A stretch of 64,000 nt of DNA from Williamsia faeni (GTDB taxonomy: Bacteria > Actinomycetota > Actinomycetes > Mycobacteriales > Mycobacteriaceae): contig QJJF01000006.1 in assembly GCA_003202005.1 (NCBI GenBank), positions 174,171 through 238,170 on the forward strand. The letters are read 5' to 3'. The position numbers and the translations under genes were made by a program. This document shows positions 4,564 through 37,281 of this stretch, piece after piece (position 1 is the first letter of the stretch; every line of letters begins with the position of its first letter). Under the pieces are notes generated by a model that made no database searches, was not told the DNA's origin, and saw only the letters and a program-made list of their open reading frames with translations.

Positions 4564-4566
4564 GGA

Positions 4567-5040: not shown

Positions 5041-5117
5041 TGGTGTTGAGAGGTCATCTTTTGTTGCCTGTATTCAGTTGTGGTCGCTCTTTACAAGCGA
5101 TCAGGTCGAAGTGCTGA

Positions 5118-5833: not shown

Positions 5834-5861
5834 TTGACGCAATCCGATAGTTCAGTTTATG
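5834..5861 (+). promoter_or_regulatory. Candidate promoter of the rhamnose operon
   Basis: TTGACG at 5834-5839 and TTTATG at 5856-5861 are separated by 16 nt, a fair match to a housekeeping promoter. The LacI-type operator starts about 14 nt further on, covering the expected transcription start, which fits repression. Hexamer matching alone is weak evidence; the position relative to the operator adds weight. Confidence 0.5.
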
Positions 5862-5874
5862 GTGATCCCACTCA

Positions 5875-5896
5875 CAAATTGAAACGTTTCAAATTG
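5875..5896. promoter_or_regulatory. LacI-family operator upstream of the rha operon
   Basis: A 22-bp palindrome with one mismatched pair, built on the perfect 14-bp core TTGAAACGTTTCAA (5879-5892), with the central CG typical of LacI/GalR-family operators. It lies just downstream of the candidate promoter and 22 nt before the mutarotase start. A second core lies inside rhaI. The likely ligand is the LacI-type regulator encoded at 13853-14863. Confidence 0.85.
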
Positions 5897-5917
5897 CCGA
5901 TCAAGACAGGCCCACTC

Positions 5918-6271
5918 ATGCACAACGACGAACCGCCAACAGGCACCCCACGTCAGCGGGTGTGTTTCACCATGAACGTGCGGCCCGACCGCATCGACGA
6001 CTACCTGGCCGCCCACGAGCACGTGTGGCCGGACATGCTCGACGCACTTCGCGAGACCGGCTGGTCCAACTACTCGCTGTTCATGCAGCCCGGCACCGGA
6101 CTGGTGGTCGGCTACGTGGAAACCGACAACTTCGACCGTGCGCACGAACTGATGGCACAGACCGCGGTGAACTCCCGCTGGCAGGCATCCATGGCGCAGT
6201 ACTTCGCCGATCCCACGGCCGGACCTGACACGACCATGAGCCGACTCGACCACTACTTCCATCTCGCCTGA
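5918..6271 (+). CDS. rhaM: L-rhamnose mutarotase
   Basis: This enzyme interconverts the alpha and beta anomers of L-rhamnose so that the isomerase gets its preferred form. The 117-residue product shows the family pattern: an N-terminal FTMNVRPDRIDDYLAAHEHV with the catalytic-region His, then VWPDMLDALRETGWSNYSLF, and a C-terminal SRLDHYFHLA. The longer open frame starts upstream of the operator; the ATG at 5918 after the operator gives the normal length. It is the first gene of the rhamnose operon, 90 nt before the transporter. Confidence 0.9.
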   Translation: MHNDEPPTGTPRQRVCFTMNVRPDRIDDYLAAHEHVWPDMLDALRETGWSNYSLFMQPGTGLVVGYVETDNFDRAHELMAQTAVNSRWQASMAQYFADPTAGPDTTMSRLDHYFHLA

Positions 6272-6361
6272 ACCCACACTCATCTCCACCAAGCCCGACC
6301 CAGCGTTCATCTCCACCCCGCCCGACCCACTACCCTTCGTCCACACCCCAAAGGAGCGCCC

Positions 6362-7738: not shown

Positions 7739-7739
7739 C

Positions 7740-8909: not shown

Positions 8910-8972
8910 GTTCTCACCTTTGACTCAGTCAGTTTTTGAACACTTGTTTTCTCGATATCTGTAAGGAATGCC

Positions 8973-12487: not shown

Positions 12488-13731
12488 AACGGCAGTTCCC
12501 CAAGGTCCACGACCTGGCGCCACTGATGAAGTTCAAGAAGCCCGAGATCAATGGCAAGAAACGGCGCCTCGATTCGGCACTGACCATCGAGGACCTCCGG
12601 AAAATCGCCAAACGGCGCACACCGCGCCCGGCCTTCGACTACACCGACGGTTCGGCCGAGGCCGAGATCTCGATCAGCCGGGCCCGCGAGGCGTTCACCG
12701 ACATCCAGTTCAACCCGGCGATCCTGCGCGACGTCTCCACGGTGAACACCGGGTGGGACGTCCTCGGAGCCCCGGTGGCGTTGCCGTTCGGTATCGCGCC
12801 CACCGGCTTCACCCGGATGATGCAGACCGAAGGTGAGATCGCCGGCGCCCACGCCGCGGCGAGGGCCGGTATCCCCTTCTCCCTGTCGACGATGGGCACC
12901 GCGTCCATCGAGGACGTGAAGGCCGCCAACCCGAATGGCCGCAACTGGTTTCAGCTCTACATGTGGAAAGAGCGCGAGCGTTCGATGGCGCTGGTCGATC
13001 GCGCGGCCGCCGCGGGATACGACACCCTGCTGGTGACCGTTGACGTCCCGGTCGCCGGAGCCCGTCTGCGCGACAAGCGCAACGGCATGTCCATCCCGCC
13101 GGCACTGACACCGGGCACCGTCATCAACGCGTTGCCGCGCCCACAGTGGTGGATCGACTTCCTCACCACCGAACCGCTGGCATTCGCCTCGCTCGATCGC
13201 TGGTCCGGAACGGTGGCAGAACTCCTCGACACCATGTTCGACCCCACGGTCACCTTCGAGGATCTCGCGTGGATCCGCGATCAGTGGCCCGGCAAGATCG
13301 TGGTCAAGGGCATCCAGACCGTCGCCGACGCGAAAGCTGTTGTCGATCTGGGTGTGGACGGGATCGTGCTGTCCAACCATGGTGGCCGCCAACTCGATCG
13401 GGCCCCGATCCCGTTCCACCTGTTGCCGGAGGTCGCGACCGAGGTCGGCAACGACACCGAGATCGTGCTCGACACCGGCATCATGTCCGGCGCCGACATC
13501 GTGGCATCGATCGCACTCGGAGCCCGCTTCACCCTCATCGGCCGGGCCTACCTGTACGGCCTGATGGCCGGTGGCGAGGCCGGCGTGGACCGCGCGATCG
13601 AAATCCTTCGAGAGCAGGTCGAACGCACCATGCGACTGCTGGGTGTGGTCGCCCTCGAAGAGCTGACACCCGCGCATGTCACGCAGCTGACCCGCCTGGC
13701 GCCACGTGCACGTACCGCCGAGCGCGTCTGA
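12484..13731 (+). CDS. lldD: FMN-dependent L-lactate dehydrogenase
   Basis: A 415-residue alpha-hydroxy-acid oxidase family protein, predicted to oxidise L-lactate to pyruvate. The active-site signature [16 protein letters not shown] carries the catalytic His and the Arg that binds the substrate carboxylate; the FMN phosphate region is [20 protein letters not shown]. It overlaps rhaB by 4 nt and closes the operon, which gives a direct route from lactaldehyde via lactate to pyruvate. No membrane segment is visible; members are often peripheral membrane enzymes feeding quinones. Confidence 0.92.
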
Positions 13732-13768
13732 GCCGAGTTAGCCTGTCCCATGGACCCCGTTGGTCTCG

Positions 13769-13800
13769 AGTTCCCGCCGCCACCGGTGACGGCGGGAACT
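13769..13800 (+). terminator. Hairpin terminator after the rhamnose operon
   Basis: A perfect 11-bp GC-rich stem (13769-13779 with 13790-13800) and a 10-nt loop, 37 nt after the lldD stop. No strong T run follows, which is common for actinobacterial terminators. It separates the operon from the regulator gene. Confidence 0.65.
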
Positions 13801-13852
13801 AGTTGCGGGTTCGGTAAATGGCAGTCTGAGACAAGGGTACGAAAGGCAAGCG

Positions 13853-14863
13853 ATGGCGGTGAGCATGCGCGATGTGGCGGCGAGCGCCGCCGTCTCGATC
13901 GGCACCGTGTCGAATGTCCTGAACTCCCCGGAGAAGGTTGCCCCCGCGACTGTCGAGCGGGTTCACAAGGCGATCGCCGAACTCGGTTTCGTCCGCAATG
14001 ACGCCGCCCGCCAGCTCAAGGCCGGACGGTCGCGATGCGTCGGTCTGATCGTCCTGGATGTCGGCAACCCGTTCTTCACCGACCTCGCCCGGGCCGCCGA
14101 ACGCCAGGCCGCCGACAACCATCTCACCCTGCTGCTGGGTACGTCCGACGATGACGTCGACCGCGAGCACACCTACCTCGACACATTCGATGAGCAGCGG
14201 GTGTACGGCGTGCTGGTCTCGCCGGTCGGCGACGACCTCAGCAGACTCGAAGCGTTGCAACAGCGCGGCACACCCGTGGTCCTGGTGGACCGCAACGGCG
14301 AAAACACCCCGTTTCCCTCGGTGTCGGTCGACGACGTCGCCGGCGGCGCCATGGCCTGCCGCCACCTCTGCGACACGGGGCGGCGGCGGATCGCCTTTGT
14401 CGGAGGTCCACTGGCAATCCGTCAGGTCGCGGACCGACTGCAAGGGGCCCGCGAGACCATCGACCAGGTCCCCGGCGCCACGCTCGAGGTCGTCAAGACC
14501 CGGTCCCTGAGCGTCTTGGCCGGACGCGCCGCGGGTGAAGAGATCCGACGCCGGCCGGCTGCGGAGCGCCCGGATGCAGTGTTCTGCGCCAACGACCTGC
14601 TCGCCGTCGGGGTCCTGCAGGCTCTGACGATGGTCGGCGACGTCGCCGTACCCGGCGACATCGCGCTCATCGGCTACGACGACATCGACTTCGCCGAAGC
14701 CGCAGTGGTGCCGTTGTCGTCGATCAGCCAGCCGAGCCGCCGGCTCGGGTCCCGCGCCATCGACCTCCTGGTCGCCGAGGCCACCCGGACCTCGGACGAC
14801 CCACCCCGTCACGTGCGTTTTCAGCCACGTCTGGTCGTTCGCGCGTCGACCGCCCCCGCCTGA
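13853..14863 (+). CDS. LacI-family transcriptional regulator, probable rhamnose repressor
   Basis: A 336-residue regulator. Residues 1-55 form the helix-turn-helix and hinge region (MRDVAASAAVSIGTVSNVLN, then AIAELGFVRNDAARQLKAGR); residues 60-330 form the periplasmic-binding-protein-like sensor with VGLIVLDVGNPFFTDLARAA. It lies 121 nt after lldD, past a hairpin, on the same strand. The two operator-like palindromes in the rha operon have the LacI-family form, so control of that operon is a strong inference. The effector is likely a rhamnose pathway intermediate. No operator copy was seen before its own start. Confidence 0.93.
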   Translation: MAVSMRDVAASAAVSIGTVSNVLNSPEKVAPATVERVHKAIAELGFVRNDAARQLKAGRSRCVGLIVLDVGNPFFTDLARAAERQAADNHLTLLLGTSDDDVDREHTYLDTFDEQRVYGVLVSPVGDDLSRLEALQQRGTPVVLVDRNGENTPFPSVSVDDVAGGAMACRHLCDTGRRRIAFVGGPLAIRQVADRLQGARETIDQVPGATLEVVKTRSLSVLAGRAAGEEIRRRPAAERPDAVFCANDLLAVGVLQALTMVGDVAVPGDIALIGYDDIDFAEAAVVPLSSISQPSRRLGSRAIDLLVAEATRTSDDPPRHVRFQPRLVVRASTAPA

Positions 14864-14952
14864 TCTCGTCTCGCCAACACGTGGCATCAAGCCACCCAAC
14901 GTGAAACACTCGTAGTCAGATGTGAACTCCAAATCACCAGGGAGATGTGCTC

Positions 14953-17223
14953 ATGGCGCAGGAGAAGACCACCTACTGCCGGATCTGCGAACCGCTGTGC
15001 GGGATGATTGCGACCGTCGAGGACGGCGAGCTGCTGTCACTGCGGCCCGACCCGCACAATCCGCTGTCGAAGGGTTTCGCCTGCCCGAAGGGGATCGCCT
15101 TCACCGAGATCGTCAACGACCCCGACCGGGTCCTGCATCCACTCCGCAGGAACGCGCAGGGCGAGTTCGAGCAGGTCTCGTGGGAGACGGCGATGGGCGA
15201 CATCACCCGCAGACTCGCCGCGATCCACCGCCGCGACGGGGCCTCGGCCGTCGGCTGGTATTTCGGCAATCCGGCGACGTTCTCCGCCGGACATGTCATG
15301 TGGGCGGCCATGTTCCTCAATCTGCTGGGAACACCGCACGTCTATTCGGCGGGCTCACAGGATGTGAACCAACGGTTCGCGGCCAGCCATTTCTTGTACG
15401 GCAACCCCGTCGCCGCCCCGATCCCCGACATCAACCGGGTTCAGTTCCTGGTCATCATCGGCGCCAATCCCGTTGTCTCCCACGGCAGTGTGATGAGTTC
15501 CCCGCGCATCCGGGAGGGCCTGACCGCAATCACCAAACGCGGCGGACGGGTCCTGGTGATCGACCCACGCCGCACCGAGACCGCGCGCGAATTCGACTGG
15601 CAGCCCATCGTGCCCGACACCGATGCACTGCTGCTGCTCTCGCTCTTGCACGTCATGTTCGACGAACAACTCGCAGATGAACGACGTCTCGATGCCCGCA
15701 GCACCGGGCTGGCGACGATCAAGGATGTGGCACAGAGGTATTCACCTGAGACCACGGCCGAGCGCACCGGTATCGACGCCGAGACGGTACGCGCCCTCGC
15801 GCGTGAACTGGTGTCCACCGAGCGGGCCGCGGTGTACGGCCGGGTGGGTACATCACTCGGCCGCACGGGCACTCTGACCACCGCACTCCTGGACATCGTG
15901 AACCTGGTGGCCGGCAACCTCGACGAGGTCGGTGGGTCGATGTTCGGCGACCTGGGCATCCCCGGACAACGACTCGGCGTTGCTGCACTGCAGCATGTTC
16001 CGAACTTTGCCTGGGCGGGCCGGCGGAGCCGGATCGGTAACCTGCCGCAGATCATCGGAACCGCTCCGGCGTCGGTCATGGCCAAAGAGATGACCACGCC
16101 GGGACCCGGTCAACTCAAGGCGATGTTCATCAGTGCCGGCAATCCCGTGCTCTCGGTGCCCAACGGCGCGGAGTTGAGTGCGGCACTCGATGACGTGGAA
16201 CTGTTTGTCTCACTGGACATCTACCAGAACGAGACCAACGCAAACGCCGACTACATCCTCCCGACGACGACCATGTACGAGCGATCCGACTTCCTGTTGC
16301 CGTTCCAGGCATTGTTCACCACACCGTTCAAACAGGCCACCGATGCGGTGATCCCACCACGCGGCGAGGCCCGCGAGGAATGGGTGATCATCAACGAATT
16401 GGTGGCGGCACTGGCCACCGCCAGGGCACCGCTGGTCGGCGCCCTGCATCTGTGGAACCGGCTGGGCGAACGCATCGGCAAGCCCTGGACGCCGGATCGG
16501 CTGTCAGATCTGGTGATCCGGATCGGCGCCGGCGGAGATCGATTCGGCTTGCGGAAAGCGGGCCTCAACCTGCGCACGCTCACCACAAAATTCCCGAACG
16601 GCAAGATCGTCGCCGACCACCTCACACCCGGACAGCTCGGTGGCATCGTCACGCACCGCGGCCGCAAGATCCGATTGGACGCACCGGAGCTGATCGCAGA
16701 GCTCGACCGCCTCGACCCCACCGCCGACCCGGCATACCCGCTGCGGCTCATCGGTATGCGCGAGATCCGCTCAGAGAACAGCTGGCAGCACAACGCTCCA
16801 ATGTTGCTCCGCGGCGGACGCACCCACGCGGCCCGAATGCATCCGCTTGATGCCCAGGCCCGCGACATCGCCGAAGGTGAACTCATCAGCGTCCGTTCCC
16901 GGCACGGACAGATAGCCCTGCCCGTCATGGTCACCGACGACATCAAACCGGGAGTTGTTGCGATACCGCATGGTTGGGGTCACAACGGGACCGGTGGCTG
17001 GACTCAGGCCAACACCGCTGCGGAAAACGACCTGGGAACCGGTGGCGCGAATATCAATGCCCTGATCTCGTCGGACCCGAAAGACCTCGAGCGACTTGCC
17101 GGCATGGCGAACATGACCGGTGTGCCGATCGAGGTCGAGGCCCTCGAGCAGTCCGTCCGCGCGCAATGTGCCTCGCAAACAGCAGAACTCGCCAGAGGGT
17201 CAGACCGCGCTCAGATCAGCTGA
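14953..17223 (+). CDS. Molybdopterin-dependent oxidoreductase (DMSO reductase family)
   Basis: A 756-residue protein. The N-terminus has the 4Fe-4S pattern CRICEPLCGM followed later by CPKG, then the molybdopterin domains and a C-terminal MopB-type dinucleotide-binding domain (about 600-730, with HPLDAQARDIAEGELISVRS). Similar proteins are often annotated as nitrate reductase or formate dehydrogenase-like, but substrate cannot be read here. There is no Tat signal, so it is probably cytoplasmic. I chose ATG 14953 because GGGAG lies 8 nt upstream; GTG at 14947 is possible. Its last 13 nt overlap the convergent LLM gene. Confidence 0.9.
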   Translation: MAQEKTTYCRICEPLCGMIATVEDGELLSLRPDPHNPLSKGFACPKGIAFTEIVNDPDRVLHPLRRNAQGEFEQVSWETAMGDITRRLAAIHRRDGASAVGWYFGNPATFSAGHVMWAAMFLNLLGTPHVYSAGSQDVNQRFAASHFLYGNPVAAPIPDINRVQFLVIIGANPVVSHGSVMSSPRIREGLTAITKRGGRVLVIDPRRTETAREFDWQPIVPDTDALLLLSLLHVMFDEQLADERRLDARSTGLATIKDVAQRYSPETTAERTGIDAETVRALARELVSTERAAVYGRVGTSLGRTGTLTTALLDIVNLVAGNLDEVGGSMFGDLGIPGQRLGVAALQHVPNFAWAGRRSRIGNLPQIIGTAPASVMAKEMTTPGPGQLKAMFISAGNPVLSVPNGAELSAALDDVELFVSLDIYQNETNANADYILPTTTMYERSDFLLPFQALFTTPFKQATDAVIPPRGEAREEWVIINELVAALATARAPLVGALHLWNRLGERIGKPWTPDRLSDLVIRIGAGGDRFGLRKAGLNLRTLTTKFPNGKIVADHLTPGQLGGIVTHRGRKIRLDAPELIAELDRLDPTADPAYPLRLIGMREIRSENSWQHNAPMLLRGGRTHAARMHPLDAQARDIAEGELISVRSRHGQIALPVMVTDDIKPGVVAIPHGWGHNGTGGWTQANTAAENDLGTGGANINALISSDPKDLERLAGMANMTGVPIEVEALEQSVRAQCASQTAELARGSDRAQIS

Positions 17224-25167: not shown

Positions 25168-26565
25168 ATGGACCGGGCCATGAGAGAACTAGCTCCCGGA
25201 GAAAATACTCCACTGCCCTCGCCGCTGATCAGCGTCTCCGTCACCTGCGCGTCCCCGGTCAACACGTCCGCGGTGTTGCTGACACCGGCCGGCCGGGTCC
25301 GCTCGGATGACGATCTGATCTTCTACAACCAGGCCTTCGGTCCGGGTGTCGCCTACAGCAGCGACGCCCGCAGCGACATCATCACGATCGACACCTCCCG
25401 CGTCCCAGCCGGCATCGAGACGATCGCGATCACCGCCAGCCTCGACGGCACCGGCCCCACCACCTTCGCCACCGCCGGGACATTGCGCGCCGAATTGCGC
25501 GACGGATCGGGCCGGCCGACGGTGGCATTCACCCCCGGCCGGCTGACCTCGGAATCGGCACTGGTCTGCATGGAGGTCTACCGCCGCGGCGACGCCTGGA
25601 AGGTACGCGCCGTCGGACAGGGTTACGACGACGGATTGGCCGGTCTGGCAACAGCTTTCGGCATCCAGGTCGACGACGATCCAGGCACCACCCCCCCGAC
25701 GCCGGATCCCATGCCATGGCCACCGGCCGGGCAGAGCGCGCCACCCGCACCGCCTCCTCAACCGGCCTACACCCAGACATCCGCCCAGACCCCGCCCCCA
25801 GCACAGCCCCAGCATCAGGGAGTTCCCGCCATGAACAGTGACCTATTCGCACCGGCCCATGCCGAGGTGACCGGCAGCCGTATCCAGAAGCAGGGCAGCA
25901 AGATGTGCCGTGTCGGCATGAACGGCGAGATCATGGCACGCACCGGGTCGATGGTCGCCTACCAGGGAAATCTCCATTTCGAGGCGCAGGGCTCGGGAGG
26001 TATCAGCCGTGCCATCCGGAACACCCTCACCGGCGAAGGCGTGCCGTTGATGAAGGTGACCGGTCAAGGCGACCTGTTCCTCGCCGACGCGGCCAGCGAC
26101 GTCCACCTCATCGACCTCGACGGCTCCGACGGTCTGACCATCAACGGCGCCAACGTCCTGGCCTTCGACTCGACGCTGACCTACGACGTCAAGCGCGTCC
26201 AGGGCGCCGGCGCCCAGAGCAACGCCGGGCTGTTCAACTGCGTCTTCACAGGTCGCGGCCGCATCGCGATCACCACCGACGGCAATCCGGTGGTCCTGAC
26301 CGTCGACCAGCAGACCTTCGCCGATCCCAACGCGGCGGTCGCGTGGTCGTCGAGCCTGCAGACCAGCATCAAGCGCAACGATTCGTTCAATCTCGGAACC
26401 CTGATGGGTCGCAGCACCGGCGAACGCTTCACCCTCGCCTTCAGCGGCCAGGGCTTTGTGGTGGTCCAGCCCTCCGAACTCCCGCCGGGTGGATTCATCG
26501 GCGGCACCGGTGGCGGCAGCTCATCCGGCGTCTCCGGCGGCCTCGGCGGCCTCCTCGGGCGGTAG
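25168..26565 (+). CDS. TerD domain - AIM24 domain fusion protein
   Basis: A 465-residue cytoplasmic protein. Residues 1-170 resemble the TerD stress/tellurium-resistance fold (LISVSVTCASPVNTSAVLLT, acidic DDDLIFYNQ). Residues 178-220 are a Pro/Gln/Thr-rich linker. Residues 221-445 resemble the AIM24 (TIGR00266-like) beta-rich domain (GSKMCRVGMNGEIMARTGSM to FAFSGQGFVVVQ-like end), followed by a Gly/Ser-rich tail. TerD proteins bind calcium and are linked to membrane-associated stress complexes; AIM24 function is poorly known. An ATG at 25180 is an alternative start. An internal AGGGAG-8 nt-ATG at 25817-25833 could give a free AIM24 protein. It lies between rpsH and rpsN, an unusual place. Confidence 0.82.
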   Translation: MDRAMRELAPGENTPLPSPLISVSVTCASPVNTSAVLLTPAGRVRSDDDLIFYNQAFGPGVAYSSDARSDIITIDTSRVPAGIETIAITASLDGTGPTTFATAGTLRAELRDGSGRPTVAFTPGRLTSESALVCMEVYRRGDAWKVRAVGQGYDDGLAGLATAFGIQVDDDPGTTPPTPDPMPWPPAGQSAPPAPPPQPAYTQTSAQTPPPAQPQHQGVPAMNSDLFAPAHAEVTGSRIQKQGSKMCRVGMNGEIMARTGSMVAYQGNLHFEAQGSGGISRAIRNTLTGEGVPLMKVTGQGDLFLADAASDVHLIDLDGSDGLTINGANVLAFDSTLTYDVKRVQGAGAQSNAGLFNCVFTGRGRIAITTDGNPVVLTVDQQTFADPNAAVAWSSSLQTSIKRNDSFNLGTLMGRSTGERFTLAFSGQGFVVVQPSELPPGGFIGGTGGGSSSGVSGGLGGLLGR

Positions 26566-26645: not shown

Positions 26646-26715
26646 TTGTTGCACCGTCGCTCCATTGTCCGACAGCACTGCTCCAATGTTCGAACTCGAA
26701 CAAAGGAGCGAACCA

Positions 26716-27321
26716 ATGTCCGACTACACCACCGCCGTGAACGGCCTACCGCGCTGGCATCCCAGTCCACTCGTCAACTCGACCATCAAACGAATCCGAG
26801 TCCATGGATGGGCGATCACCGCGGTCAGCGGCGAGTGCGAGTTCGACTCGCCGGACTGCACGTCGCCCGAATGCCCCTTCGGATACACCACCGGATTCGG
26901 ATTGCATTCGATACCCGAACTTGCCGTATATGGACTCGACGCCAGGACCAGTGGACGGGTGCTCAACGAGCTGGGGGATCTCCTGCACGTCTACGACTGG
27001 CGCGCCATCGTCGACGAGTGCGCGGAGCTGTCACTCCGATCCATCGGCGCCCCCGTCCGGCTGATCGAGCTCATCGACAAGGAAGACCTGCTGATCACAA
27101 ACGAACTCTTTCCGAATTCACCTGCGCTGCAGGTTGTCTGGCCGGATGAACGCGGAAACTTCCCATGGTCGGACAGCTATACGCTGCAGCCCGACCATCA
27201 ACAGATCAAGGGCATCCTGCCGACAAAGAACAACCGGCGGCGTGGACCTCGGATCACTCCGAACGCCGGCCCCAACCGGGCCCAGCGGCGTCAGGCGCAA
27301 CGACGCAAGAACAGACCCTGA
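26716..27321 (+). CDS. DUF4262-like protein
   Basis: A 201-residue protein. The central part resembles DUF4262 (FGYTTGFGLHSIPELAVYGL, then GRVLNELGDLLHVYDWRAIV), a domain of unknown function found in many actinobacteria. A cysteine-rich insert (ECEFDSPDCTSPECPFGY) precedes it and could bind metal. The C-terminus is a basic tail ending NRAQRRQAQRRKNRP. The ATG at 26716 has AAAGGAG 8 nt upstream, which decides against the longer frames. It converges on rpsN across a strong bidirectional terminator. Confidence 0.75.
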   Translation: MSDYTTAVNGLPRWHPSPLVNSTIKRIRVHGWAITAVSGECEFDSPDCTSPECPFGYTTGFGLHSIPELAVYGLDARTSGRVLNELGDLLHVYDWRAIVDECAELSLRSIGAPVRLIELIDKEDLLITNELFPNSPALQVVWPDERGNFPWSDSYTLQPDHQQIKGILPTKNNRRRGPRITPNAGPNRAQRRQAQRRKNRP

Positions 27322-28865: not shown

Positions 28866-29072
28866 TTTTTCTCCTTGACCTGGCTGGTAAATATGTGTGG
28901 CGGATTTCCGTCCCGACACACGCGGTCCGTTGCCATCGGTGGCGCGCCTGCCTGCAGTTATCCACCACAGGGGGTTCGCTGCTCGAAGTGCGGGCACAGA
29001 TGTGCCGCGGGCAACCGGTCAAGCATAGGTGAAAGACCAGGTCGGATACAAATCACCGCTGGTCGCGGTCGG

Positions 29073-29339
29073 TCACCAGTCGTCGAGTGAGGTGTAGCCG
29101 TCCTGGATCGCACGGGCCAGCAACTGCGACTTGGTTCTCGCCGAGCGGCCGACGAGGGCGTATTTCGCCCGGATCCTGGTGACGTGGGTATTGACTGTCG
29201 TCTGCGAGATGTAGAGCGACGCAGCCGCCTCCTCCTTGGAGTCAAAGGCGAACCAGGCGAGCAGGACTTCGACCTCGCGGGCCGACAGGACCGGAATCCG
29301 AGTTGCGAGCGACGGGGACAAGGAACTGTCGACACTCAT
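29073..29339 (-). CDS. Small LuxR-type HTH protein
   Basis: An 88-residue protein that is almost only a GerE/LuxR helix-turn-helix domain (residues 15-75: PVLSAREVEVLLAWFAFDSK, then AASLYISQTTVNTHVTRIRA). It has no receiver or ligand domain, so it may act as a stand-alone DNA binder; NarL-like single-domain proteins of this size occur in Mycobacteriales, often next to larger LuxR genes. It reads toward rplN on the same strand, 207 nt upstream, and so could influence that transcript. Function unknown. Confidence 0.85.
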   Translation of the reverse strand: MSVDSSLSPSLATRIPVLSAREVEVLLAWFAFDSKEEAAASLYISQTTVNTHVTRIRAKYALVGRSARTKSQLLARAIQDGYTSLDDW

Positions 29340-29493
29340 CTGGCGACTCTCTTCTGCTGGTGGCTGATGCCATGGCTCGTCCCCCGACGTCGTTCAAGCG
29401 TAGAAACCCCGGGCCAGGTCGGTAAGTCCCAGTTCTAGGGGGTCCGAGCCGGCGGTAGCTCACCTCTGGATCAGGCATAGAAGTTAGGTTGGT

Positions 29494-29658
29494 GTGACGT
29501 CGGACGGTGAGAACACCGCCACGGCAACAGTCGAAGTCGCCAGCCCCCATACCCCCGAGCCGGTCGCGATGCCGCTGGGATTTGTCTACGTCGACGGCAC
29601 GTGGAAGCTCACGACCGACGCCATCAACTCACTCGTGTCGATGGGCGGCGGTCACTGA
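29494..29658 (+). CDS. Short ORF resembling the C-terminus of a secreted low-molecular-weight antigen
   Basis: A 54-codon frame starting at GTG 29494, directly preceded by an in-frame stop, and ending TGA at 29656-29658. Its C-terminal half (PLGFVYVDGTWKLTTDAINS) is reminiscent of the C-terminal beta-strand segment in mycobacterial MTB12-like exported proteins, but there is no signal peptide or rest of the domain. A good terminator follows. I read it as the surviving 3' end of a gene that lost its front, or a very small gene; recognition is by memory of the family pattern and is uncertain. Confidence 0.4.
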   Translation: MTSDGENTATATVEVASPHTPEPVAMPLGFVYVDGTWKLTTDAINSLVSMGGGH

Positions 29659-29679
29659 CAGCTTGCCCGACAGCTGACG

Positions 29680-29708
29680 ATGCCCGGCCGCACTCTGCGG
29701 CCGGGCAT
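29680..29708 (+). terminator. Terminator hairpin after the short ORF
   Basis: A perfect 13-bp GC-rich stem (29680-29692 with 29696-29708), a 3-nt loop, then TTC. It lies 22 nt after the short ORF. A complete terminator behind a 54-codon frame supports the view that a larger gene once ended here. Confidence 0.85.
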
Positions 29709-29800
29709 TTCATGTCCATCGATCGAACGTGCCACAGCTCATACGGCCGGTCAGTTCGATTCCCTTAAGGTGGAATCAACTCTTCGTCAGAGAGGCAATC

Positions 29801-30358
29801 ATGACCGACAGCAATGGCTTTGCCGATCGCGACCGGATCGACTTGACCAAGGGTCCGCGCAACGCCTCCGGTCACGACACCACGCCGCTGCCCTCACCCG
29901 TCTCCGCACCGGAACTTCCGGAGGCCGGCTCTGACTTCTGGCAGCCGTACACCCCGTACGTCGATCCGCTGGCCGCCCTGGACCCCGCCTATCCGCCGTA
30001 CCCCGTCGCCTACCCGCAGACGCTCTACCCGACCGGTCAGTACGCGCAGGCCCAGTACTACGCCAATCCGTATCTGATGGCCCCCCAGCATGTGATGGTC
30101 CGGCCACGCTCGAACGCCATGGCCACCGGCGCGTTGATCTCCTCACTGGTCGCGTACCCCGCGATGTTCTTCTGCTTCGCCGGCGCACTGATCGCACCGG
30201 TGAGCGTGGTCCTGGGCGTCATCGCCCTCAATCAGATCAAGGACCGCCCGTACGAAAGTGGCGAAGGCCAGGCCTGGAGCGGAATCATCCTCGGCGGCCT
30301 GCTCACCGTGCTCTGCATCGGCCTGGCCGCGGCCTGGGTCGCGCTGATCGCGGGTTAG
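29801..30358 (+). CDS. DUF4190-type membrane protein
   Basis: A 185-residue protein. Residues 1-105 are polar and rich in Pro, Tyr, Ala and Gln (PPYPVAYPQTLYPTGQYAQA), probably disordered and cytoplasmic. Residues 108-150 and 160-184 form two hydrophobic segments with the short conserved link NQIKDRPYESGEGQAWSGII typical of DUF4190 proteins. The ATG at 29801 gives the clean start (MTDSNGFADRDRID). Function unknown; such proteins are common and often neighbour other cell-envelope genes. It ends 10 nt before the TetR gene, so the two are probably one transcript. Confidence 0.85.
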   Translation: MTDSNGFADRDRIDLTKGPRNASGHDTTPLPSPVSAPELPEAGSDFWQPYTPYVDPLAALDPAYPPYPVAYPQTLYPTGQYAQAQYYANPYLMAPQHVMVRPRSNAMATGALISSLVAYPAMFFCFAGALIAPVSVVLGVIALNQIKDRPYESGEGQAWSGIILGGLLTVLCIGLAAAWVALIAG

Positions 30359-30368
30359 CTCACATCCG

Positions 30369-30968
30369 ATGACCGATACGAGCCTTGACCGGGGCAAACG
30401 AGAGTTGCTCGACGCAGCCGAACGGTTGATCGCAACCCGCGGCTACGAAGTTCCCTTGCGTGACATCGCGGTTGCCGCCGGTCACCGCAACAACTCCGCG
30501 GTGCAGTACCACTACGGCAATCGCCAGGGCTTGATCTCGGCGATTGTCGCAAGGCGCCTGGGCCCGATGGAGGTCGAACGGGCGCGAATGCTGGAAGACT
30601 TTGGCGCACAAGGGAAAAGGCCCAGCGTTCGTGACCTCATCAGCATATTGGTCCTTCCGATCCTGGAGATGAAGGGCACGCACTATGCCCGATTCCTCGA
30701 GGTGACCCGGCCGTCATGGCCAGACGAATCGATTCCGACCGGGTACACCGAATGGCCCAAGGTTCTCGATCAGCTGAACCAGTCACTCTCGGGCGACACC
30801 GCAACCCGGCATCGACGAGTCGCCGCGGTGGCGACCGCGATGTTTGCATTGATCGCCGACTTCGAACGCCGCACCGAACTCGGCGATCAATCGGAATCGG
30901 AACCAGACGAGATCATCGACATGCTGACGTCGATGATGACCACACCCATTCAGACCGCGGCAACCTAG
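30369..30968 (+). CDS. TetR-family transcriptional regulator
   Basis: A 199-residue regulator. The N-terminal helix-turn-helix is at residues 10-55 (LLDAAERLIATRGYEVPLRD, then HRNNSAVQYHYGNRQGLI); the rest is an all-helical ligand domain without recognisable specificity. It follows the DUF4190 gene by 10 nt. The next gene is the protease of the four-gene unit, 76 nt downstream past an inverted repeat that could include an operator. Control of either neighbour is possible. Confidence 0.93.
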   Translation: MTDTSLDRGKRELLDAAERLIATRGYEVPLRDIAVAAGHRNNSAVQYHYGNRQGLISAIVARRLGPMEVERARMLEDFGAQGKRPSVRDLISILVLPILEMKGTHYARFLEVTRPSWPDESIPTGYTEWPKVLDQLNQSLSGDTATRHRRVAAVATAMFALIADFERRTELGDQSESEPDEIIDMLTSMMTTPIQTAAT

Positions 30969-30978
30969 AGGCGCCGGG

Positions 30979-31041
30979 GAACTTTCACGTGCGTGGCCGA
31001 CTCCTATCGGCAACAACACATCCCCACGCGACGGAAAGTTC
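30979..31041 (+). promoter_or_regulatory. Inverted repeat covering the ribosome site of the protease gene
   Basis: Arms 30979-30996 and 31024-31041 match at 14 of 18 positions, with perfect outer 8 bp (GAACTTTC / GAAAGTTC). The right arm contains the GGAAAG ribosome site of the gene starting at 31045, so the folded RNA would hide it. It may be a TetR operator pair, an attenuator, or a translational lock. Confidence 0.6.
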
Positions 31042-31044
31042 ACG

Positions 31045-31887
31045 ATGATTGAAGCCGGAATCGACTTCGAGCCAACCGATACCCAGGTTGAAGACCCGCA
31101 AACCTCCACCCTCGGGGAGTGGTCTGATCACGACATCACCTTCGATCAACCGGATGATCCCGAACCATCCGCCGAACCGGGCGAGAATGCCGGTGACGCC
31201 GACGAGTACTCCGAGCACTGGTTCCTGCAGGCCGAGGACGGCACATGTGTGCCGGCGAGCGTCGCCCAGATTGTTGCCGAGTACACCGGCGAAAACATCC
31301 AGAGCGAAGAAGCCTTTGTTCAGATGGCCCAAGAGAACGGCTATTTCGCCGGCGGCGACGTCAGCAACGGGATGTCGATCTATGCGGCCGCGGATCTGTT
31401 GGAACAGAACGGGATTCCCGCCACCGTCGAGACCGGCACGATGTCGGACCTGTCGACGGCATTGGACGAGGGCCGCGGGGTCCTGCTCTACGTCGACTCC
31501 GGCGAGTATTGGGATCCCGAGCAAGAGGAAGTCGACGAGGCCCGGGGCCGCGACCAGGGCGGCGACCACTGCGTCGTCGTCAGCGAGATCGACTACGACA
31601 AAGGCGTTGTCTACCTCAGCGATCCCGGCCATCCCGACGGTGACCGCATGGAGGTTCCGCTCGATGAGTTCGAGGAGGCCTGGGGCGACGCCGACAACAC
31701 GATGATCGTCTGCGATGAACCCTCCCCCAACAGCGGCGTCCAAGACGCAGAACCATCAGACGCCGACGGCACCACCGATCCGCTGCTGGATACCGGCACC
31801 GAAACCGAGGGCGGCCTGGACGCCGCCATCGACTGGGCCACTGCACGTCCGTGGCTGCTGCTGCCGCTGGTCATCGGTGGACACTGA
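31045..31887 (+). CDS. Papain-like (C39-type) cysteine peptidase homologue
   Basis: A 280-residue acidic protein. The core (residues 55-225) has the layout of a Peptidase_C39-like fold: Gln62 and Cys68 in LQAEDGTCVPASVAQI, His175 in GGDHCVVVSEI, and Asp193 in VVYLSDPGHP. These would form the oxyanion hole and the catalytic triad. There is no signal peptide; the first 55 residues are an acidic disordered leader. The C-terminus ends in a hydrophobic patch (ARPWLLLPLVIGGH). The nuclease gene starts 22 nt downstream, so this is probably the first gene of a four-gene unit with the ATPase. Substrate unknown. Confidence 0.72.
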   Translation: MIEAGIDFEPTDTQVEDPQTSTLGEWSDHDITFDQPDDPEPSAEPGENAGDADEYSEHWFLQAEDGTCVPASVAQIVAEYTGENIQSEEAFVQMAQENGYFAGGDVSNGMSIYAAADLLEQNGIPATVETGTMSDLSTALDEGRGVLLYVDSGEYWDPEQEEVDEARGRDQGGDHCVVVSEIDYDKGVVYLSDPGHPDGDRMEVPLDEFEEAWGDADNTMIVCDEPSPNSGVQDAEPSDADGTTDPLLDTGTETEGGLDAAIDWATARPWLLLPLVIGGH

Positions 31888-31909
31888 CGGTTGACGGTAG
31901 GTTCTGGCC

Positions 31910-32932
31910 ATGGATTGGTCGGCCCTGCCAACATCGGGAATCACTGCACTCACCGGCATCAACCCGACCGACATGGCGATCGCCCTGGACGACCTGCCCG
32001 ATGACGCGCCCGCGGTCCTTCTGATCCGACTCGATCAGGTCACCGACATTTCGCAGGTGCTGGGCGACCTCGTGGCCGTACTGGAGAACATCACCTACGA
32101 CCTCTACCCGGTGTGGCTCCCGGGGGCCGAGGTATCCCCTGGTCGGGCAACCATCGACCGCGCCGCCGCCCGGGCCCTCGCTTCGGAACTGGCTGCGCGA
32201 TCGGACCACTACCGACCGTTCCTCATGGATCTGACGTCCAACGCCATCGCGGCGCACACCCGAGTCGAGCCGCTCAGCATGGGCGACAAGTATTCCGCCG
32301 CCACCCGGATGTCCGGGCTGATCCGGGTGATCGCAACAAGTTTCGATCACGAACGGGTGGTGTTGGCGTTGTATTCACCGACACCGCTGCCGACGGAGCA
32401 GCAGCGTTGTGTGGCGGCGGTCAGCGATTGGCTGAGCGCATACGTCGGGGTCTGGCTCCTCGACGACATCACTGCTGCCGTCGACCGCTTCACGACTGTG
32501 CGGGCGATGGACAGTCCGGGCGAAGCGCTGGATGAGGCCCCGTGGACGCTGCCCGCCGCGGCGTTCCCGCCGATCTCCGGACGACCGCACCCCGCAAGCG
32601 CGGCCGAACAACGGCTCGAGTCGCACCTGGCCCGCGTTCCGTGGGCAGCGGATCGCCGATGGAACCATCTCGTGCCCACCGGCGATCTTCAACCGTTTGT
32701 ACGAGCTGATCTGCTGTTGCCGGATGCCAGAATTGTCGTGGAGATCGACGGCGCCGACCATCGAACCGCCACGAAGTACTCCGACGATCGGACGCGGGAT
32801 GTCGCACTGCAACTCGCCGGATACCTGGTGGTCCGCTTCACAAATGAACAGGTGCTGAGCGACACCGCACGCATTGCAGACATAATCGAGAAACTGCGTT
32901 CTGATCGCTTGGCTGCAAAGGAGCTCCCGTGA
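31910..32932 (+). CDS. Protein with C-terminal Vsr/DUF559-like nuclease domain
   Basis: A 340-residue protein. Residues 1-215 form a domain I do not recognise. Residues 228-325 fit the PD-(D/E)xK nuclease fold of the Vsr/DUF559 group: an N-terminal helix with Glu233 (SAAEQRLESHL), Asp267 (FVRADLLLPD), Glu278-x-Asp280 (IVVEIDGADH), then DDRTRDVALQLAGYLVVRFT. The motif order and the GYxVxRF strand are typical, so metal-dependent DNA cleavage is likely. It overlaps the winged-helix gene by 4 nt and is thus made together with it and the ATPase. Confidence 0.78.
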   Translation: MDWSALPTSGITALTGINPTDMAIALDDLPDDAPAVLLIRLDQVTDISQVLGDLVAVLENITYDLYPVWLPGAEVSPGRATIDRAAARALASELAARSDHYRPFLMDLTSNAIAAHTRVEPLSMGDKYSAATRMSGLIRVIATSFDHERVVLALYSPTPLPTEQQRCVAAVSDWLSAYVGVWLLDDITAAVDRFTTVRAMDSPGEALDEAPWTLPAAAFPPISGRPHPASAAEQRLESHLARVPWAADRRWNHLVPTGDLQPFVRADLLLPDARIVVEIDGADHRTATKYSDDRTRDVALQLAGYLVVRFTNEQVLSDTARIADIIEKLRSDRLAAKELP

Positions 32933-33591
32933 CCACTTCGGACCTCACCGGTACGGAGATGATCGTTTTGTTGGTGTTGATGGCCGAAGGTCGAGGCCTC
33001 ACCAATACCGAGATCAAGGAACGCGGGCCCGAACTCAAGGCCCCGAGTCGTCGCAAGCTCAACACGCGAGGGCTCATCGACAGCGATACGTCGAAGGTGC
33101 CGCACAAGCATTCATTGTCCGACCGCGGCTGGGCCAAATGCAACGAACTGCTCGGCACCACACCGCCCGCCGGCACCACCCCACAGGGCAAAGCGCTGTT
33201 CACCGTACTCGCCGGTCTCGGCCGCCATTTCCAACGATCCGATCTGCGATTGGCGGATGTCTTTCTGCCATTGGAAGATTCGGACCACGAAGATCCGGTC
33301 CCGCCGGCCTCATCCGAACAGCCGGCACCAGACATCGAAACCAGAGTGATCGACGCCTACCGGTCGCTCGCCCACAGGCCCGGTGCGTGGGTATCGCTGC
33401 GTAGGCTGCGTCCGGTCCTGAGCGATATCAGCCGGACCGACCTCGACGTAGCCCTGCGTTCGCTGTACACGCGACCGGGCATCATGTTGATCCCGGAAGA
33501 GAACCAGAAGACATTGACGCCCGATGACCGGGCCGCCGCCGTCTCGATCGGCGACCAAGACAAGCACCTCATCCATGTGGAGGCAGTGTGA
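32929..33591 (+). CDS. Winged-helix-like protein linking nuclease and ATPase
   Basis: A 220-residue protein with a GTG start at 32929 behind AAAGGAG. Residues 8-75 look like a winged helix (MIVLLVLMAEGRGLTNTEIK, RKLNTRGLIDSD, a beta-wing with KHSLSDRGWAKCNELL). Residues 130-205 look like a second winged helix (VIDAYRSLAHRPGAWVSLRR, then LDVALRSLYTRPGIMLIPEE). The middle is a Pro/Glu/Asp-rich linker. It shares 4 nt with both neighbours. It could be the DNA-recognition or adaptor part of a complex with the ATPase, or a regulator of the unit. Confidence 0.65.
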   Translation: MTTSDLTGTEMIVLLVLMAEGRGLTNTEIKERGPELKAPSRRKLNTRGLIDSDTSKVPHKHSLSDRGWAKCNELLGTTPPAGTTPQGKALFTVLAGLGRHFQRSDLRLADVFLPLEDSDHEDPVPPASSEQPAPDIETRVIDAYRSLAHRPGAWVSLRRLRPVLSDISRTDLDVALRSLYTRPGIMLIPEENQKTLTPDDRAAAVSIGDQDKHLIHVEAV

Positions 33592-36500
33592 CCTCCGTAT
33601 CGCCTCTCGAAGCGCTCACTAGGGCGCGCAGCGGCTTTTCCAACTCGGCGCATACCCGCGACGATGTGTGGATCTCGCACAACGACATTCACGTCGACGG
33701 ACTGCACGCGAAAGCTTGGCGAGCCATCGAACGCGCCGTTGCCGACGCACAGGAAAGTCGGGGCCCCAGTCCGCTCGGTGTGGTGCTGCAGGGGCAAGCC
33801 GGTACGGGTAAGACGCATCTCCTCGGCCAGATCCGTGAATACGTGCAAGGCCACGACGGCTACTTCGTCATGCTCGACCTGCTCGACCCGAGTGACTTCT
33901 GGCGCACGTTGCTCAGTTCATTGCTCGACTCGCTGAACCGGCAGATCGCACCGCCCGTCGACAAAACCCAACTCCACGACGTCATGCAGCGCCTCGCCGA
34001 CCTCGCCGGCACCTCGCGGGTTGCCCGGCGCGCGATCTCGGGCGAAACACTCATCACGCCCACGATTCTCGACGAATTCGTCGGCAGCCTGCGCAAACCG
34101 CTGCCTGCCCTCATCCGCAGCCACCACGCCACCCTGCGGGCGCTGGTGCTGTCCGCGGCACCGAGTTCAAGGCTCAACGACCTCGGTATCGCCTACCTCG
34201 AGAACAACATCGACGAGATCGACCCGGCAGAGCGAACCGAGTGGCAACTACCGCCCCGCGCCCTCCCCTATGAACAGACCGTCCGTGCCATCTCGGAGTA
34301 CATGGCGGTAACCGGACCCACCGTTCTGGCCATCGATCAGATCGATACCCTGATCGCGCAATCCCGATCCGGCACGGATGCCGCTACTTCCGCAGGATCC
34401 TACGCAGATGTCGTGGTCGACCTGGTAGCGCACGGCCTGATGTCGGTGCGAGAAGTCCTGCTCCGCACCGTCTGTGTGGTGTCATGTCTTCCCTCCGTCT
34501 GGACCATCATCGAAAACCAGGCGACGGCGACGGTACCGGATCGATTCCACGCCAACTTCGTCCTCCAGGGACTGCCTGACGGCGCTTTTGCCCGAACACT
34601 GGTCGAACGGCGCCTGTCCAAATCGTTTGCTGCGTCTGGCTTCACGCCGCCATATCCGACCTGGCCTGTCCAGGATCAGGCATTTGCCGCTGCCGCATCG
34701 CTGACCGCCCGGCGGTTGATCAAGCGCATCGACCGGCACATCAACGACTGTCTCGACAACGAGATCGCAACCGAGCTCGCGTCGTTGGCCGACGAGTCGA
34801 CCATCATTGTCAAGCCGCCACGGCCGCCGAAGAACCCTGACCTCGATGAGGTCTACGAACGTCACATCCGGAACGCCCTCACCGCGTCCGCAGTGGACCC
34901 GAAAAAGGAAGATGATGTGATTCCGGCGTTGTTGAACGCCGGATTACGCGCCTGGGCAGTCGAATCGGGTTCGGATGACTTCACGATCGATTACGTCGGC
35001 GGCCAGTACCGCCTCCATGCCCGGCTACGGCTGATCCTCGACGCCTTCACGGACGATGAACAGCACTGGGCGTTTCGCGCAATCTCTGCCACCAATCCCA
35101 AAGCAGTTCAATCACGCCTTCGGAACGCCTCGATCGACGCCGGCCTGTCGTCGTCGGTGCCGCGTCGTCAGCTCTTCATCCTGCGCAACATCGAGTGGCC
35201 CGGCGGCCCGAAAACGACCGACATGGTCAACGAGTTCACCGCCAATGGTGGACAGGTACTAGCGATGTCCTTCGACGACCTCGCCAGACTCAGTGCGCTC
35301 AACGAGATGACGAAGGCCATGCCAGCCGGGTTCGACGCGTGGCTCCGGTCGCATCGCCCTGCCCACCAGATCGAGTTCCTCAAAATCGCACTCACCGATG
35401 CCGGTACCATCACCGAGCGCGCGCCCGAATCGGCAGTCGATATCGATTGGATCAACCCGGAACCGCCGGCCCCAGAACCTCACACCGCCGAACCCCAAGC
35501 CGCTGAACTCGACACACCCGGAGAACCGACTCCGGAGCGGTTTGCGGAAATCACCACTGAGATACCGGTTTACGTCCCGGACGATCACCGTGATGTCCCG
35601 GTCTCGCCGGCCGCTGAGGCCCCGACAATCAACCTCGGTATCTCGCGATCGGGAACAACCGCGTCCGTCGACCTCGAAGCACTCCGGAAGCACACTGTCA
35701 TCTTCGCCGGGTCGGGTTCGGGCAAGACGGTGATGATTCGTCGGCTCATCGAAGAATGTGCGTTGCAAGGTGTTTCGGCGATCGTCCTCGATCCCAACAA
35801 CGACCTCGCACGGCTGGGAACAGCCTGGCCCGAGGCACCTTCGGGCTGGTCGGGCGATGACGCCGCCAAGGCAGTCGAGTACATCGACACAGTGGAAACC
35901 GTCATCTGGACGCCACGACTCAACGGCGGTCGTCCGTTGAGCTTTCAGCCACTCCCCGATTTCGAGGCCGTCCAAGAGAACCCGGACGAGTTCGACTTGG
36001 CCGTCGACGCAGCGGTGTCCGCGCTCAAGCCATATGCGGGGGTCAGTGGTGCGAAGGCAGCACTCCAGGAAGCAATCCTGAAGCGATCCATGGCGCTGTA
36101 CGGTCGGAAAGGCGGCGGGTCCCTCGGCGGGTACGTCGGCCTTTTGTCAGAGATGACGGACGACATGAGCGGACTGACCGACACTGAGAAGCTCGCGGGC
36201 ATCCTGGCCGAAAACCTCAAGGCCGCCATGATCATCAATCCGATGCTGGGTGGTGGCGGGACACCTGTCGACCCCTCGGTCCTGCTCACCCCAACTGCCG
36301 GCAAACGTGCCCGCATCTCGGTGATCAGCCTGATCGGCCTGCCCGACGAAAGTAACCGACAGGGTTTCGTGAATCAGCTCGAACTCGCCCTGTTCGCCTG
36401 GATCAAGAAAAATCCGGCGGGCGATCGCCCACTCGGTGCGTTGTTCGTCATGGACGAGGCCCAGACCCTGGTCCCGTCAGGGCGAGTGACCGCGTGCACG

Positions 36501-36836
36501 CGAAGCACGGTCGCGCTCGCGTCGCAGGCCCGTAAGTACGGACTCGGTCTGGTCTTCGCGACGCAAGCGCCCAAGGGCATCGACGCCAAGATCGTCGGCA
36601 ATGCGTCCACTCAGTTCTTCGGTCGCCTCAACACGCCGGTGCAGATCAACGCCGCGAACGAAATGGCATCCGCCAAGGGCAGTCGCATCAACGACATCGG
36701 CCGCCTTGGCACCGGAGAGTTCTACGTCGCCCCCGATGGCGCGTCGTTCCAGAAGGTCAACACCCCACTGTGCCTGAGCTATCATCCCTCTTCCCCGCTG
36801 TCGGACGAAGAAGTCGTCGCGCTCAGCCGACAATAG
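33588..36836 (+). CDS. Dual P-loop ATPase, AAA-like N-terminus and HerA/FtsK-like C-terminus
   Basis: A 1082-residue protein with two NTPase modules. The first has Walker A GQAGTGKTH (69-77) and Walker B-like TVLAIDQID (245-253), as in AAA/STAND ATPases. Residues 520-600 form a middle domain (RNIEWPGGPKTTDMVNEFTA). After a Pro/Glu-rich linker (620-680), the second module has Walker A AGSGSGKTV (707-715), VLDPNNDL, Walker B LFVMDEAQ (952-959) and ATQAPKGID (991-999), the pattern of HerA/VirD4/FtsK DNA pumps. There are no membrane segments, so it is not FtsK itself. It overlaps the winged-helix gene by 4 nt and ends the unit before a strong terminator. Likely role: ATP-driven DNA translocation or remodelling coupled to the nuclease (inference). 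Confidence 0.8.
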   Translation: MTSVSPLEALTRARSGFSNSAHTRDDVWISHNDIHVDGLHAKAWRAIERAVADAQESRGPSPLGVVLQGQAGTGKTHLLGQIREYVQGHDGYFVMLDLLDPSDFWRTLLSSLLDSLNRQIAPPVDKTQLHDVMQRLADLAGTSRVARRAISGETLITPTILDEFVGSLRKPLPALIRSHHATLRALVLSAAPSSRLNDLGIAYLENNIDEIDPAERTEWQLPPRALPYEQTVRAISEYMAVTGPTVLAIDQIDTLIAQSRSGTDAATSAGSYADVVVDLVAHGLMSVREVLLRTVCVVSCLPSVWTIIENQATATVPDRFHANFVLQGLPDGAFARTLVERRLSKSFAASGFTPPYPTWPVQDQAFAAAASLTARRLIKRIDRHINDCLDNEIATELASLADESTIIVKPPRPPKNPDLDEVYERHIRNALTASAVDPKKEDDVIPALLNAGLRAWAVESGSDDFTIDYVGGQYRLHARLRLILDAFTDDEQHWAFRAISATNPKAVQSRLRNASIDAGLSSSVPRRQLFILRNIEWPGGPKTTDMVNEFTANGGQVLAMSFDDLARLSALNEMTKAMPAGFDAWLRSHRPAHQIEFLKIALTDAGTITERAPESAVDIDWINPEPPAPEPHTAEPQAAELDTPGEPTPERFAEITTEIPVYVPDDHRDVPVSPAAEAPTINLGISRSGTTASVDLEALRKHTVIFAGSGSGKTVMIRRLIEECALQGVSAIVLDPNNDLARLGTAWPEAPSGWSGDDAAKAVEYIDTVETVIWTPRLNGGRPLSFQPLPDFEAVQENPDEFDLAVDAAVSALKPYAGVSGAKAALQEAILKRSMALYGRKGGGSLGGYVGLLSEMTDDMSGLTDTEKLAGILAENLKAAMIINPMLGGGGTPVDPSVLLTPTAGKRARISVISLIGLPDESNRQGFVNQLELALFAWIKKNPAGDRPLGALFVMDEAQTLVPSGRVTACTRSTVALASQARKYGLGLVFATQAPKGIDAKIVGNASTQFFGRLNTPVQINAANEMASAKGSRINDIGRLGTGEFYVAPDGASFQKVNTPLCLSYHPSSPLSDEEVVALSRQ

Positions 36837-36935
36837 GACCTAGGCTGCGGAACCCGGCCGAAATCGTCCCGCCAGAGGTCACCGAGGGAATACGCCCTCG
36901 GCCATTCCTCACGGGAGTGATCTTGGCGCACAACG

Positions 36936-36975
36936 CAAAAGCGGCCCGCCCCTTTCCAGGGACGGGCCGCTTTTG
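36936..36975. terminator. Bidirectional terminator between the ATPase gene and rpsQ
   Basis: A perfect 13-bp stem (36936-36948 with 36963-36975) extended inward by CCCT/AGGG. The left arm begins CAAAAGC and the right arm ends GCTTTTG followed by TTG, so it can stop transcription from both sides. It closes island 3 and also ends the rpsJ-to-rpsQ transcript. Confidence 0.92.
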
Positions 36976-36990
36976 TTGTAAACGTTTGGC

Positions 36991-37281
36991 TTACTTGGCC
37001 TTCTCGAGGACCTCAACCAGACGCCAGCGCTTGGTGGCGCTGGTCGGGCGGGTCTCCATCAGGCGAACGCGGTCGCCGATACCGGCGGTCTCGTTCTCGT
37101 CGTGAGCCTTGACCTTGCTGGTGGTGCGGATGATCTTGCCGTAAAGCGGGTGCTTCACGCGATCTTCCAGCTCGACCACGATGGTCTTCTGCATCTTGTC
37201 CGAGACGACGTACCCGATCCGCTCTTTGCGGCGTGCACGCTCCTCGGCGGATGTTTCTGTCACTTCCTGGTCCTTACTCAT
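36991..37281 (-). CDS. rpsQ: 30S ribosomal protein S17
   Basis: An early 16S rRNA binder with an OB fold. The 96-residue product has the family stretches [20 protein letters not shown] and [20 protein letters not shown]. The ATG at 37281 overlaps the rpmC stop by 4 nt. It is the last gene of the S10 block in this genome; a terminator lies 15 nt downstream, so rplN is cut off from it. Confidence 0.98.

Follow-up and report, generated by a model that had tools for sequence, protein, structure and literature searches.

A candidate counter-invader operon of a DUF559 nuclease, a double winged-helix protein and a fused AAA+/HerA ATPase in Williamsia faeni

Three adjacent genes of Williamsia faeni form a conserved, tightly coupled operon at positions 31910–36836 of the stretch of DNA analyzed here (64,000 nt; GenBank assembly GCA_003202005.1, contig QJJF01000006.1, positions 174,171–238,170; hereafter the window). 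The genes of this triad encode a nuclease of the DUF559/Vsr type, a protein with two winged helix-turn-helix (wHTH) units, and an ATPase that combines an AAA+ domain, a restriction endonuclease (REase)-like domain, and a HerA-type motor. The triad is accessory, has a patchy distribution across phyla, and is subject to loss. Based on these patterns and on the predicted domains, the triad likely acts on DNA as a counter-invader system. It is probably a variant of the HerA/FtsK capture kind, which in the literature covered is known only by prediction.

Gene content and coupling of the operon

The first-pass annotation of the window described four open reading frames (ORFs) on the plus strand with spacings of 22, −4, and −4 nt, which were confirmed by the ORF check. 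The active-site residues that it listed (Gln62, Cys68, His175, and Asp193 in the C39-like protein; Glu233, Asp267, Glu278, and Asp280 in the nuclease; both Walker sets in the ATPase) are all at the positions given. The genes and domains are as follows.

31045–31887, plus strand: C39-like gene, a real ORF that is judged to lie outside the system
31910–32932, plus strand: DUF559/Vsr-type nuclease gene (340 aa)
Nuclease aa 1–215: N-terminal domain with fold not assigned, the sequence outside the DUF559 part
Nuclease about aa 224–333: DUF559/Vsr-type nuclease domain (Pfam DUF559, E = 5e-11 at aa 267–327)
32929–33591, plus strand: double winged-helix protein gene (220 aa)
33588–36836, plus strand: AAA+/REase-like/HerA ATPase gene (1082 aa)
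33675–34757, plus strand: AAA+ domain of the ATPase (about aa 30–390), with Walker A GQAGTGKT at aa 69–76 and Walker B DQID at aa 250–253
34908–35318, plus strand: middle domain of the ATPase (aa 441–577), with the REase-fold order of elements and without conserved catalytic acids
35613–36833, plus strand: HerA motor domain of the ATPase (aa 676–1082), with Walker A at aa 708–714, D956-E957, and Q993
36935–36976, no strand assigned: terminator-like hairpin, common to the end of the unit and the end of the convergent rpsQ operon

For the comparison of gene sets, species genomes were scanned with the window ATPase, which gave 75 loci and thus favors the kin of this ATPase. Partner genes were located by tblastn in flanks of up to 10 kb, some of which are shortened by contig ends. 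The locus counts include close relatives and do not represent independent events, and the gap and overlap figures rest on start codons assigned by a simple rule. The nuclease, winged-helix, and ATPase genes were found together in 60 of these loci and, accompanied by the C39-like gene, in five more. The remainder comprise eight loci with the winged-helix and ATPase genes, one with the ATPase and C39-like genes (L102), and one with the ATPase and nuclease genes (L103, from Paludisphaera). Profile comparison placed a winged-helix gene in L103 as well (E = 1.9e-21 over 207 columns), such that the winged-helix protein accompanies the ATPase in 74 of the 75 loci and the nuclease does so in 66. These homologs are therefore not always single, whereas the first-pass annotation had named an invariably single occurrence as speaking against a system.

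The spacing of the genes is also conserved. The nuclease and winged-helix genes are no more than 60 nt apart in 64 of 65 loci (61 with overlap), with L051 as the exception, and the winged-helix and ATPase genes are no more than 60 nt apart in 69 of 72 loci, 62 of which have an overlap of 1 or 4 nt. The L051 locus (Rhodococcus sp. IEGM 1381, positions 631–9573) is a tandem arrangement in which the winged-helix and ATPase matches each occur twice and the nuclease match once. The proposal that the nuclease, the winged-helix protein, and the dual ATPase make up one unit is thus well founded, as they are conserved, tightly coupled, accessory, and widespread, with intact active sites.

The C39-like protein does not share this pattern, and only in part did the check for co-occurrence of all four proteins turn out as proposed. 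The first-pass annotation regarded this protein (Peptidase_C39_2, E = 8e-8 in Pfam) as the regulatory protease of a four-gene system. In line with this proposal, its C39-type residues are intact and the gap between its gene and the nuclease gene is only 22 nt in the window, and L032 and L033 have one of about 0.1 kb. However, the gene is present in all nine genomes of the genus, including one that lacks the triad and one with a decayed triad, and was not found by tblastn in the flanks of 69 of the 75 ATPase loci. Moreover, in L031, L034, and L037 it is located about 2 kb from the nuclease gene, with opposite-strand genes in between. A four-gene system is therefore very improbable. Because the C39-like gene is kept in the genus with or without the triad, it was rejected as a member, and with the corrected gene set the protease can be omitted from a clone of the system. 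Two of the loci mentioned above have other features of note. In L102, a gene for a 985-aa protein (6843–9800), which resembles patatin weakly (E = 6e-4, under the Pfam cut-off), lies between the C39-like gene and a decayed ATPase gene. The L033 record is named Kitasatospora arboriphila and is probably mislabeled, because its triad and ribosomal context are Williamsia-like.

Domain architecture and predicted activities

The nuclease profile matches PDB entry 3hrl (E = 2e-12), and residues E233, D267, E278, D280, H284, D293, R296, and D297 are invariant in all 58 aligned sequences. In PADLOC-DB (2023), the nuclease gives weak matches of the DUF559 type only, and none was found for the winged-helix protein. 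The two winged helices that had been read from the sequence of the latter are borne out by its predicted structure, which has two wHTH units. For this reason, the calmodulin likeness of its profile was rejected as spurious, although the 60 matches shown in the comparison with PDB sequences are all calmodulins (E down to 6e-6).

The ATPase has Pfam matches to AAA_16 (E = 1e-11) and DUF87 (E = 2e-9), and its closest named relatives are from Williamsia (about 80% identity). The AlphaFold2 model (mean predicted local distance difference test score 85.8, predicted template modeling score 0.59) has the domain order AAA+, REase-like middle domain, and HerA motor. Both Walker A/B sets reported previously are present, with one refinement. 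The first Walker A residues G72, G74, K75, and T76 are kept in 53 of 54 aligned sequences (the remaining row is a gap), and the first Walker B is D-Q-x-D in all 54, in which glutamine occupies the usual position of the catalytic glutamate. This invariant DQ motif suggests that the AAA+ half is a nucleotide switch more than a fast ATPase. In a profile comparison with PDB sequences, the N-terminal half gave weak and mixed AAA+ matches (best E = 0.003). For the middle domain, the REase-like order of elements is seen in the model, no acidic residue is found among the invariant columns (40 rows), and the profile comparison with PDB gave nothing convincing (best E = 0.02, with an unrelated-looking chain). 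In the model, this domain is followed by helices at 582–610 and then by a disordered linker, and wing strands are absent there. The second ATPase site is invariant in all 54 sequences (G710, K713, T714, D956, E957, and Q993). The HerA half is structurally nearest to HerA motors, several of which are from antiphage HerA complexes, and its best PADLOC match is mad8 (E = 4e-23 at aa 681–1050 in the window, 4e-27 in L103, and 3e-22 in L107).

Taken together, these features are compatible with a machine that captures foreign DNA. The complex may be loaded on invading DNA, which could be a plasmid, conjugating DNA, or a phage genome, by its winged-helix protein together with the AAA+ half of the ATPase. 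Given its DQ Walker B, the AAA+ half would serve as a nucleotide switch and a ring rather than a fast ATPase, and the middle domain, without catalytic residues, may provide contacts to DNA or protein. The HerA half would act as a hexameric translocase, pumping the DNA and handing it over to the DUF559 nuclease for cutting. In such a scheme, the core would consist of the winged-helix/ATPase pair, with the nuclease as an exchangeable effector. The defense role proposed in the first-pass annotation agrees with a triad that is conserved and accessory and has intact active sites; the protease does not belong to it, and the role itself is one that we infer.

Distribution, genomic context, and alternative explanations

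The triad is found in four phyla. Its gene order is the same in Actinomycetota, two Desulfobacterium metagenome-assembled genomes (L083 and L101), Paludisphaera, and Methylobacterium. The last of these (L107) is the mobilizable MOBP megaplasmid pMaq22A_1p of Methylobacterium aquaticum (nuclease, 10108–11169; winged-helix, 11186–11866; ATPase, 11863–15117). Two other matches labeled as plasmids appear chromosomal, as one bears a ribosomal operon and the other is 11.85 Mb in size. The ATPase is present in 54 of 201 genomes of the family, including G010, in which it is decayed, and in four of 296 phylum-wide genomes, with the window's own genome counted in both samples. Within the genus, the ATPase is intact in seven of nine genomes. 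The gene is broken in G010, which also has no winged-helix gene, and G131 has none. In G131, the C39-like gene is followed by about 100 nt, a hairpin, and the end of rpsQ, which together form a short empty site; tblastn for the nuclease, winged-helix protein, and ATPase over 19.5 kb gave no match. Such patchiness, with loss or decay of the ATPase in two of nine genomes, is unlike a housekeeping set and speaks against the conserved housekeeping link that the first-pass annotation had considered.

In the window, the genes are inside a ribosomal region, with rplN (28497 to about 28865) on one side and rpsQ (36991–37281, minus strand) on the other. Among 73 loci, 28 are labeled ribosomal-gap because they carry two or more of a set of eight ribosomal marker clusters, and these loci are therefore chromosomal. 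In the tree, which requires at least three changes of this label, all 28 fall within the Mycobacteriales clade. L057 and L079, which are labeled "other," likewise adjoin rplE or rplX. The hairpin between the ATPase gene and rpsQ is strong (−35.9 kcal/mol, z = −5.5) and absent from the output of a pattern scan for terminators. Because a nearly identical hairpin adjoins rpsQ in a relative with an empty site (L118), it is equally part of the convergent ribosomal operon end. Thus, the strong terminator described previously exists, but it was rejected as a hallmark of the unit.

The gap between rplN and rpsQ (window 28866–36990) is a recurrent site of accessory genes in Mycobacteriales, the triad among them. 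In Tsukamurella (L106, 9261–18670), this gap contains the triad, a VapBC pair, and a DEAD/DEAH helicase gene. In Gordonia (L057), the winged-helix/ATPase pair is located between nitrate-type genes and rplE. Near rplE, the window also has a TerD-AIM24 fusion gene (25168–26565), the family of which (cluster 19) is found in 18 of 76 compared neighborhoods with the window included, and a DUF4262-family gene (26665–27321), with relatives at 4882–5484 in L134 and 9003–9602 in L135.

The partner of the winged-helix/ATPase pair varies. Among the nine loci without the nuclease gene, six have instead a gene for a P-loop protein of 615–743 aa (GxSS[TA]GKT), and this TPR-like replacement occurs in some Paractinoplanes, Actinoplanes, Nonomuraea, and Rhizocola. 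The only one scanned (L081) matches TPR (E = 1e-4, below the Pfam cut-off), nSTAND3 (E = 0.22), and helix-turn-helix (E = 0.11) models. Profile comparison found no homology between the replacement and the nuclease, including the N-terminal domain of the latter. Elsewhere in the six genomes, a full-length family nuclease is present in three, a partial one in one, and a general DUF559 match or none in two. The other nuclease-less loci are the decayed L102 and two without a recognized partner (L057 and L095, the latter with an interrupted ATPase frame). Twenty genomes of the family, weighted to those without an adjacent nuclease, were chosen for a further survey, and 12 of these have a full-length family nuclease (E < 1e-70), whereas G010 has neither nuclease nor winged-helix gene. 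Seven keep the pair with general DUF559 matches or none, and around their ATPase genes no gene common to all seven was seen. Three of the seven have a DEAD-box-type helicase gene near the ATPase gene, a position that is filled by the annotated DEAD/DEAH helicase in the nuclease-carrying Tsukamurella. In two (L134 and L135), a DUF4262-family gene is directly downstream of the ATPase gene on the same strand. Beside the P-loop variant in L064, positions 13112–14341 encode a fusion of a phosphorylase with a bacterial death-like domain (bDLD3), with PADLOC matches to PDC-M60C and a PN-superfamily effector model.

Several of these observations weigh against a counter-invader system that cuts DNA. 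The seven of 20 chosen genomes that keep the pair without a family nuclease imply that cutting is not always the output, and the DUF4262-family gene might be an alternative partner in two of them. A "STAND" character of the P-loop replacement was rejected as unsupported, given the nSTAND3 score; this and the DUF4262-family gene slightly lower the odds of the counter-invader reading and of the interchangeable-output reading given below. In Mycobacteriales, the unit is mostly at one chromosomal spot, unlike a fast-moving island. Comparison of 130 proteins near the triad (one per cluster, from 43 loci not labeled ribosomal) with 130 far proteins drawn at random from 142 revealed no PADLOC enrichment (E = 1e-10), with 13 families matched near and 55 far; these counts are of families, not proteins. 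Among the near matches were mad2 (three proteins), mad3 (one), type I methyltransferase models (one protein), AriA (one), and two L064 models, and a scan of 10 proteins picked from the 130 placed only the L064 phosphorylase/death-domain protein. A search of 50,697 phage records (E = 1e-3) found no relative, and in IMG/VR four loci match the HerA half distantly (26–29%). One way to accommodate the variable partners, which we advance tentatively, is that the winged-helix protein and the AAA+/REase-like/HerA chain are a general core for sensing and pumping invading DNA, which is combined with interchangeable outputs. These would be the DUF559 nuclease in most loci, the P-loop/TPR-like protein in some, and no recognized linked effector in Gordonia and others. 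If so, pumping by HerA would be a signal as well as a means to feed the nuclease.

Other explanations place the triad outside of phage protection. It may serve mobile elements as a module for competition or maintenance, through which rival or incoming conjugative DNA is excluded or processed on behalf of the carrier; such a role would suit the copy on a mobilizable megaplasmid, the spread over four phyla, and a HerA fold that is also common to the conjugative ATPases TrwB and VirB4. However, the 28 loci in the ribosomal operon are chromosomal and no transfer gene was seen among the few neighbors with annotation, such that we consider this explanation unlikely; it overlaps with the counter-invader reading in that both include defense against plasmids. 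Still less probable is a HerA-NurA-type machine for DNA repair or chromosome processing. Although the motor half has HerA-NurA among its best structural matches and the core operon region is the home of the triad in many Mycobacteriales, the nuclease is not NurA and is missing or replaced in places. The limited presence of the ATPase in the family and its decay or absence in two genomes of the genus also conflict with a repair function.

Comparison with known systems

Several described systems share the HerA motor. Unlike HerA-SIR2 (Nezha) and HerA-DUF4297, the triad has a DUF559 effector, extra AAA+ and REase-like domains before HerA, and a winged-helix protein; no SIR2 or DUF4297 partner was matched by the four window proteins in Pfam, NCBIfam, or PADLOC. 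MADS consists of eight mad genes, including one for a methyltransferase. The HerA half has mad8 as its best PADLOC match, but the four window proteins matched none of the other mad models. The domains before HerA differ from those of DndFGH, and the DndF and DndG models had no match among these four proteins. HerA-NurA and TdpAB are motor and nuclease pairs that are not known to carry an AAA+ fusion. Their nucleases also differ, as the partner here is DUF559 rather than NurA and likewise is not that of TdpAB. Among the search results from the open-access literature, no title or abstract opening that names this gene set was seen.

The closest counterparts are predicted operons with an Orc/CDC6 AAA+ domain, an inserted inactive REase, an active REase, HerA/FtsK, and wHTH, which were proposed to intercept invading DNA and named HerA/FtsK capture systems (Rakesh, Aravind, and Krishnan, 2024; PMC10853773). 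The first-pass annotation knew of no system with these genes, but a set of domains much like this one had been predicted. The theme is repeated in a 2026 study of BREX (PMC12839542), which adds BREX-related capture (BRC) systems. These likewise combine HerA/FtsK with AAA+ and wHTH proteins, whereas no BREX model is among the 13 PADLOC families matched by the 130 near proteins. As in the HerA/FtsK capture systems, the triad brings together, within a single mobile neighborhood of patchy occurrence, an AAA+ domain, a REase-like domain that may be inactive, a nuclease with an intact active site, wHTH units, and a HerA/FtsK motor with intact ATPase motifs. It differs in that the AAA+, middle, and HerA domains are fused in one chain, the wHTH units form a separate protein while wing strands are absent after the REase-like domain, and the nuclease is replaceable or missing. 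In addition, the nuclease belongs to DUF559, which the main text of PMC10853773 does not name, AbiJ being the sole example named there for one of two active REase families; this distinction is by the main text alone. The parent class was proposed from sequence in the literature covered, and the three-gene version, with its single fused motor and intact active sites, is convenient for asking whether HerA motors capture invading DNA. Nuclease-less and partner-swapped relatives, together with decayed or empty sister loci, provide natural comparisons for this probable variant of the HerA/FtsK capture kind.

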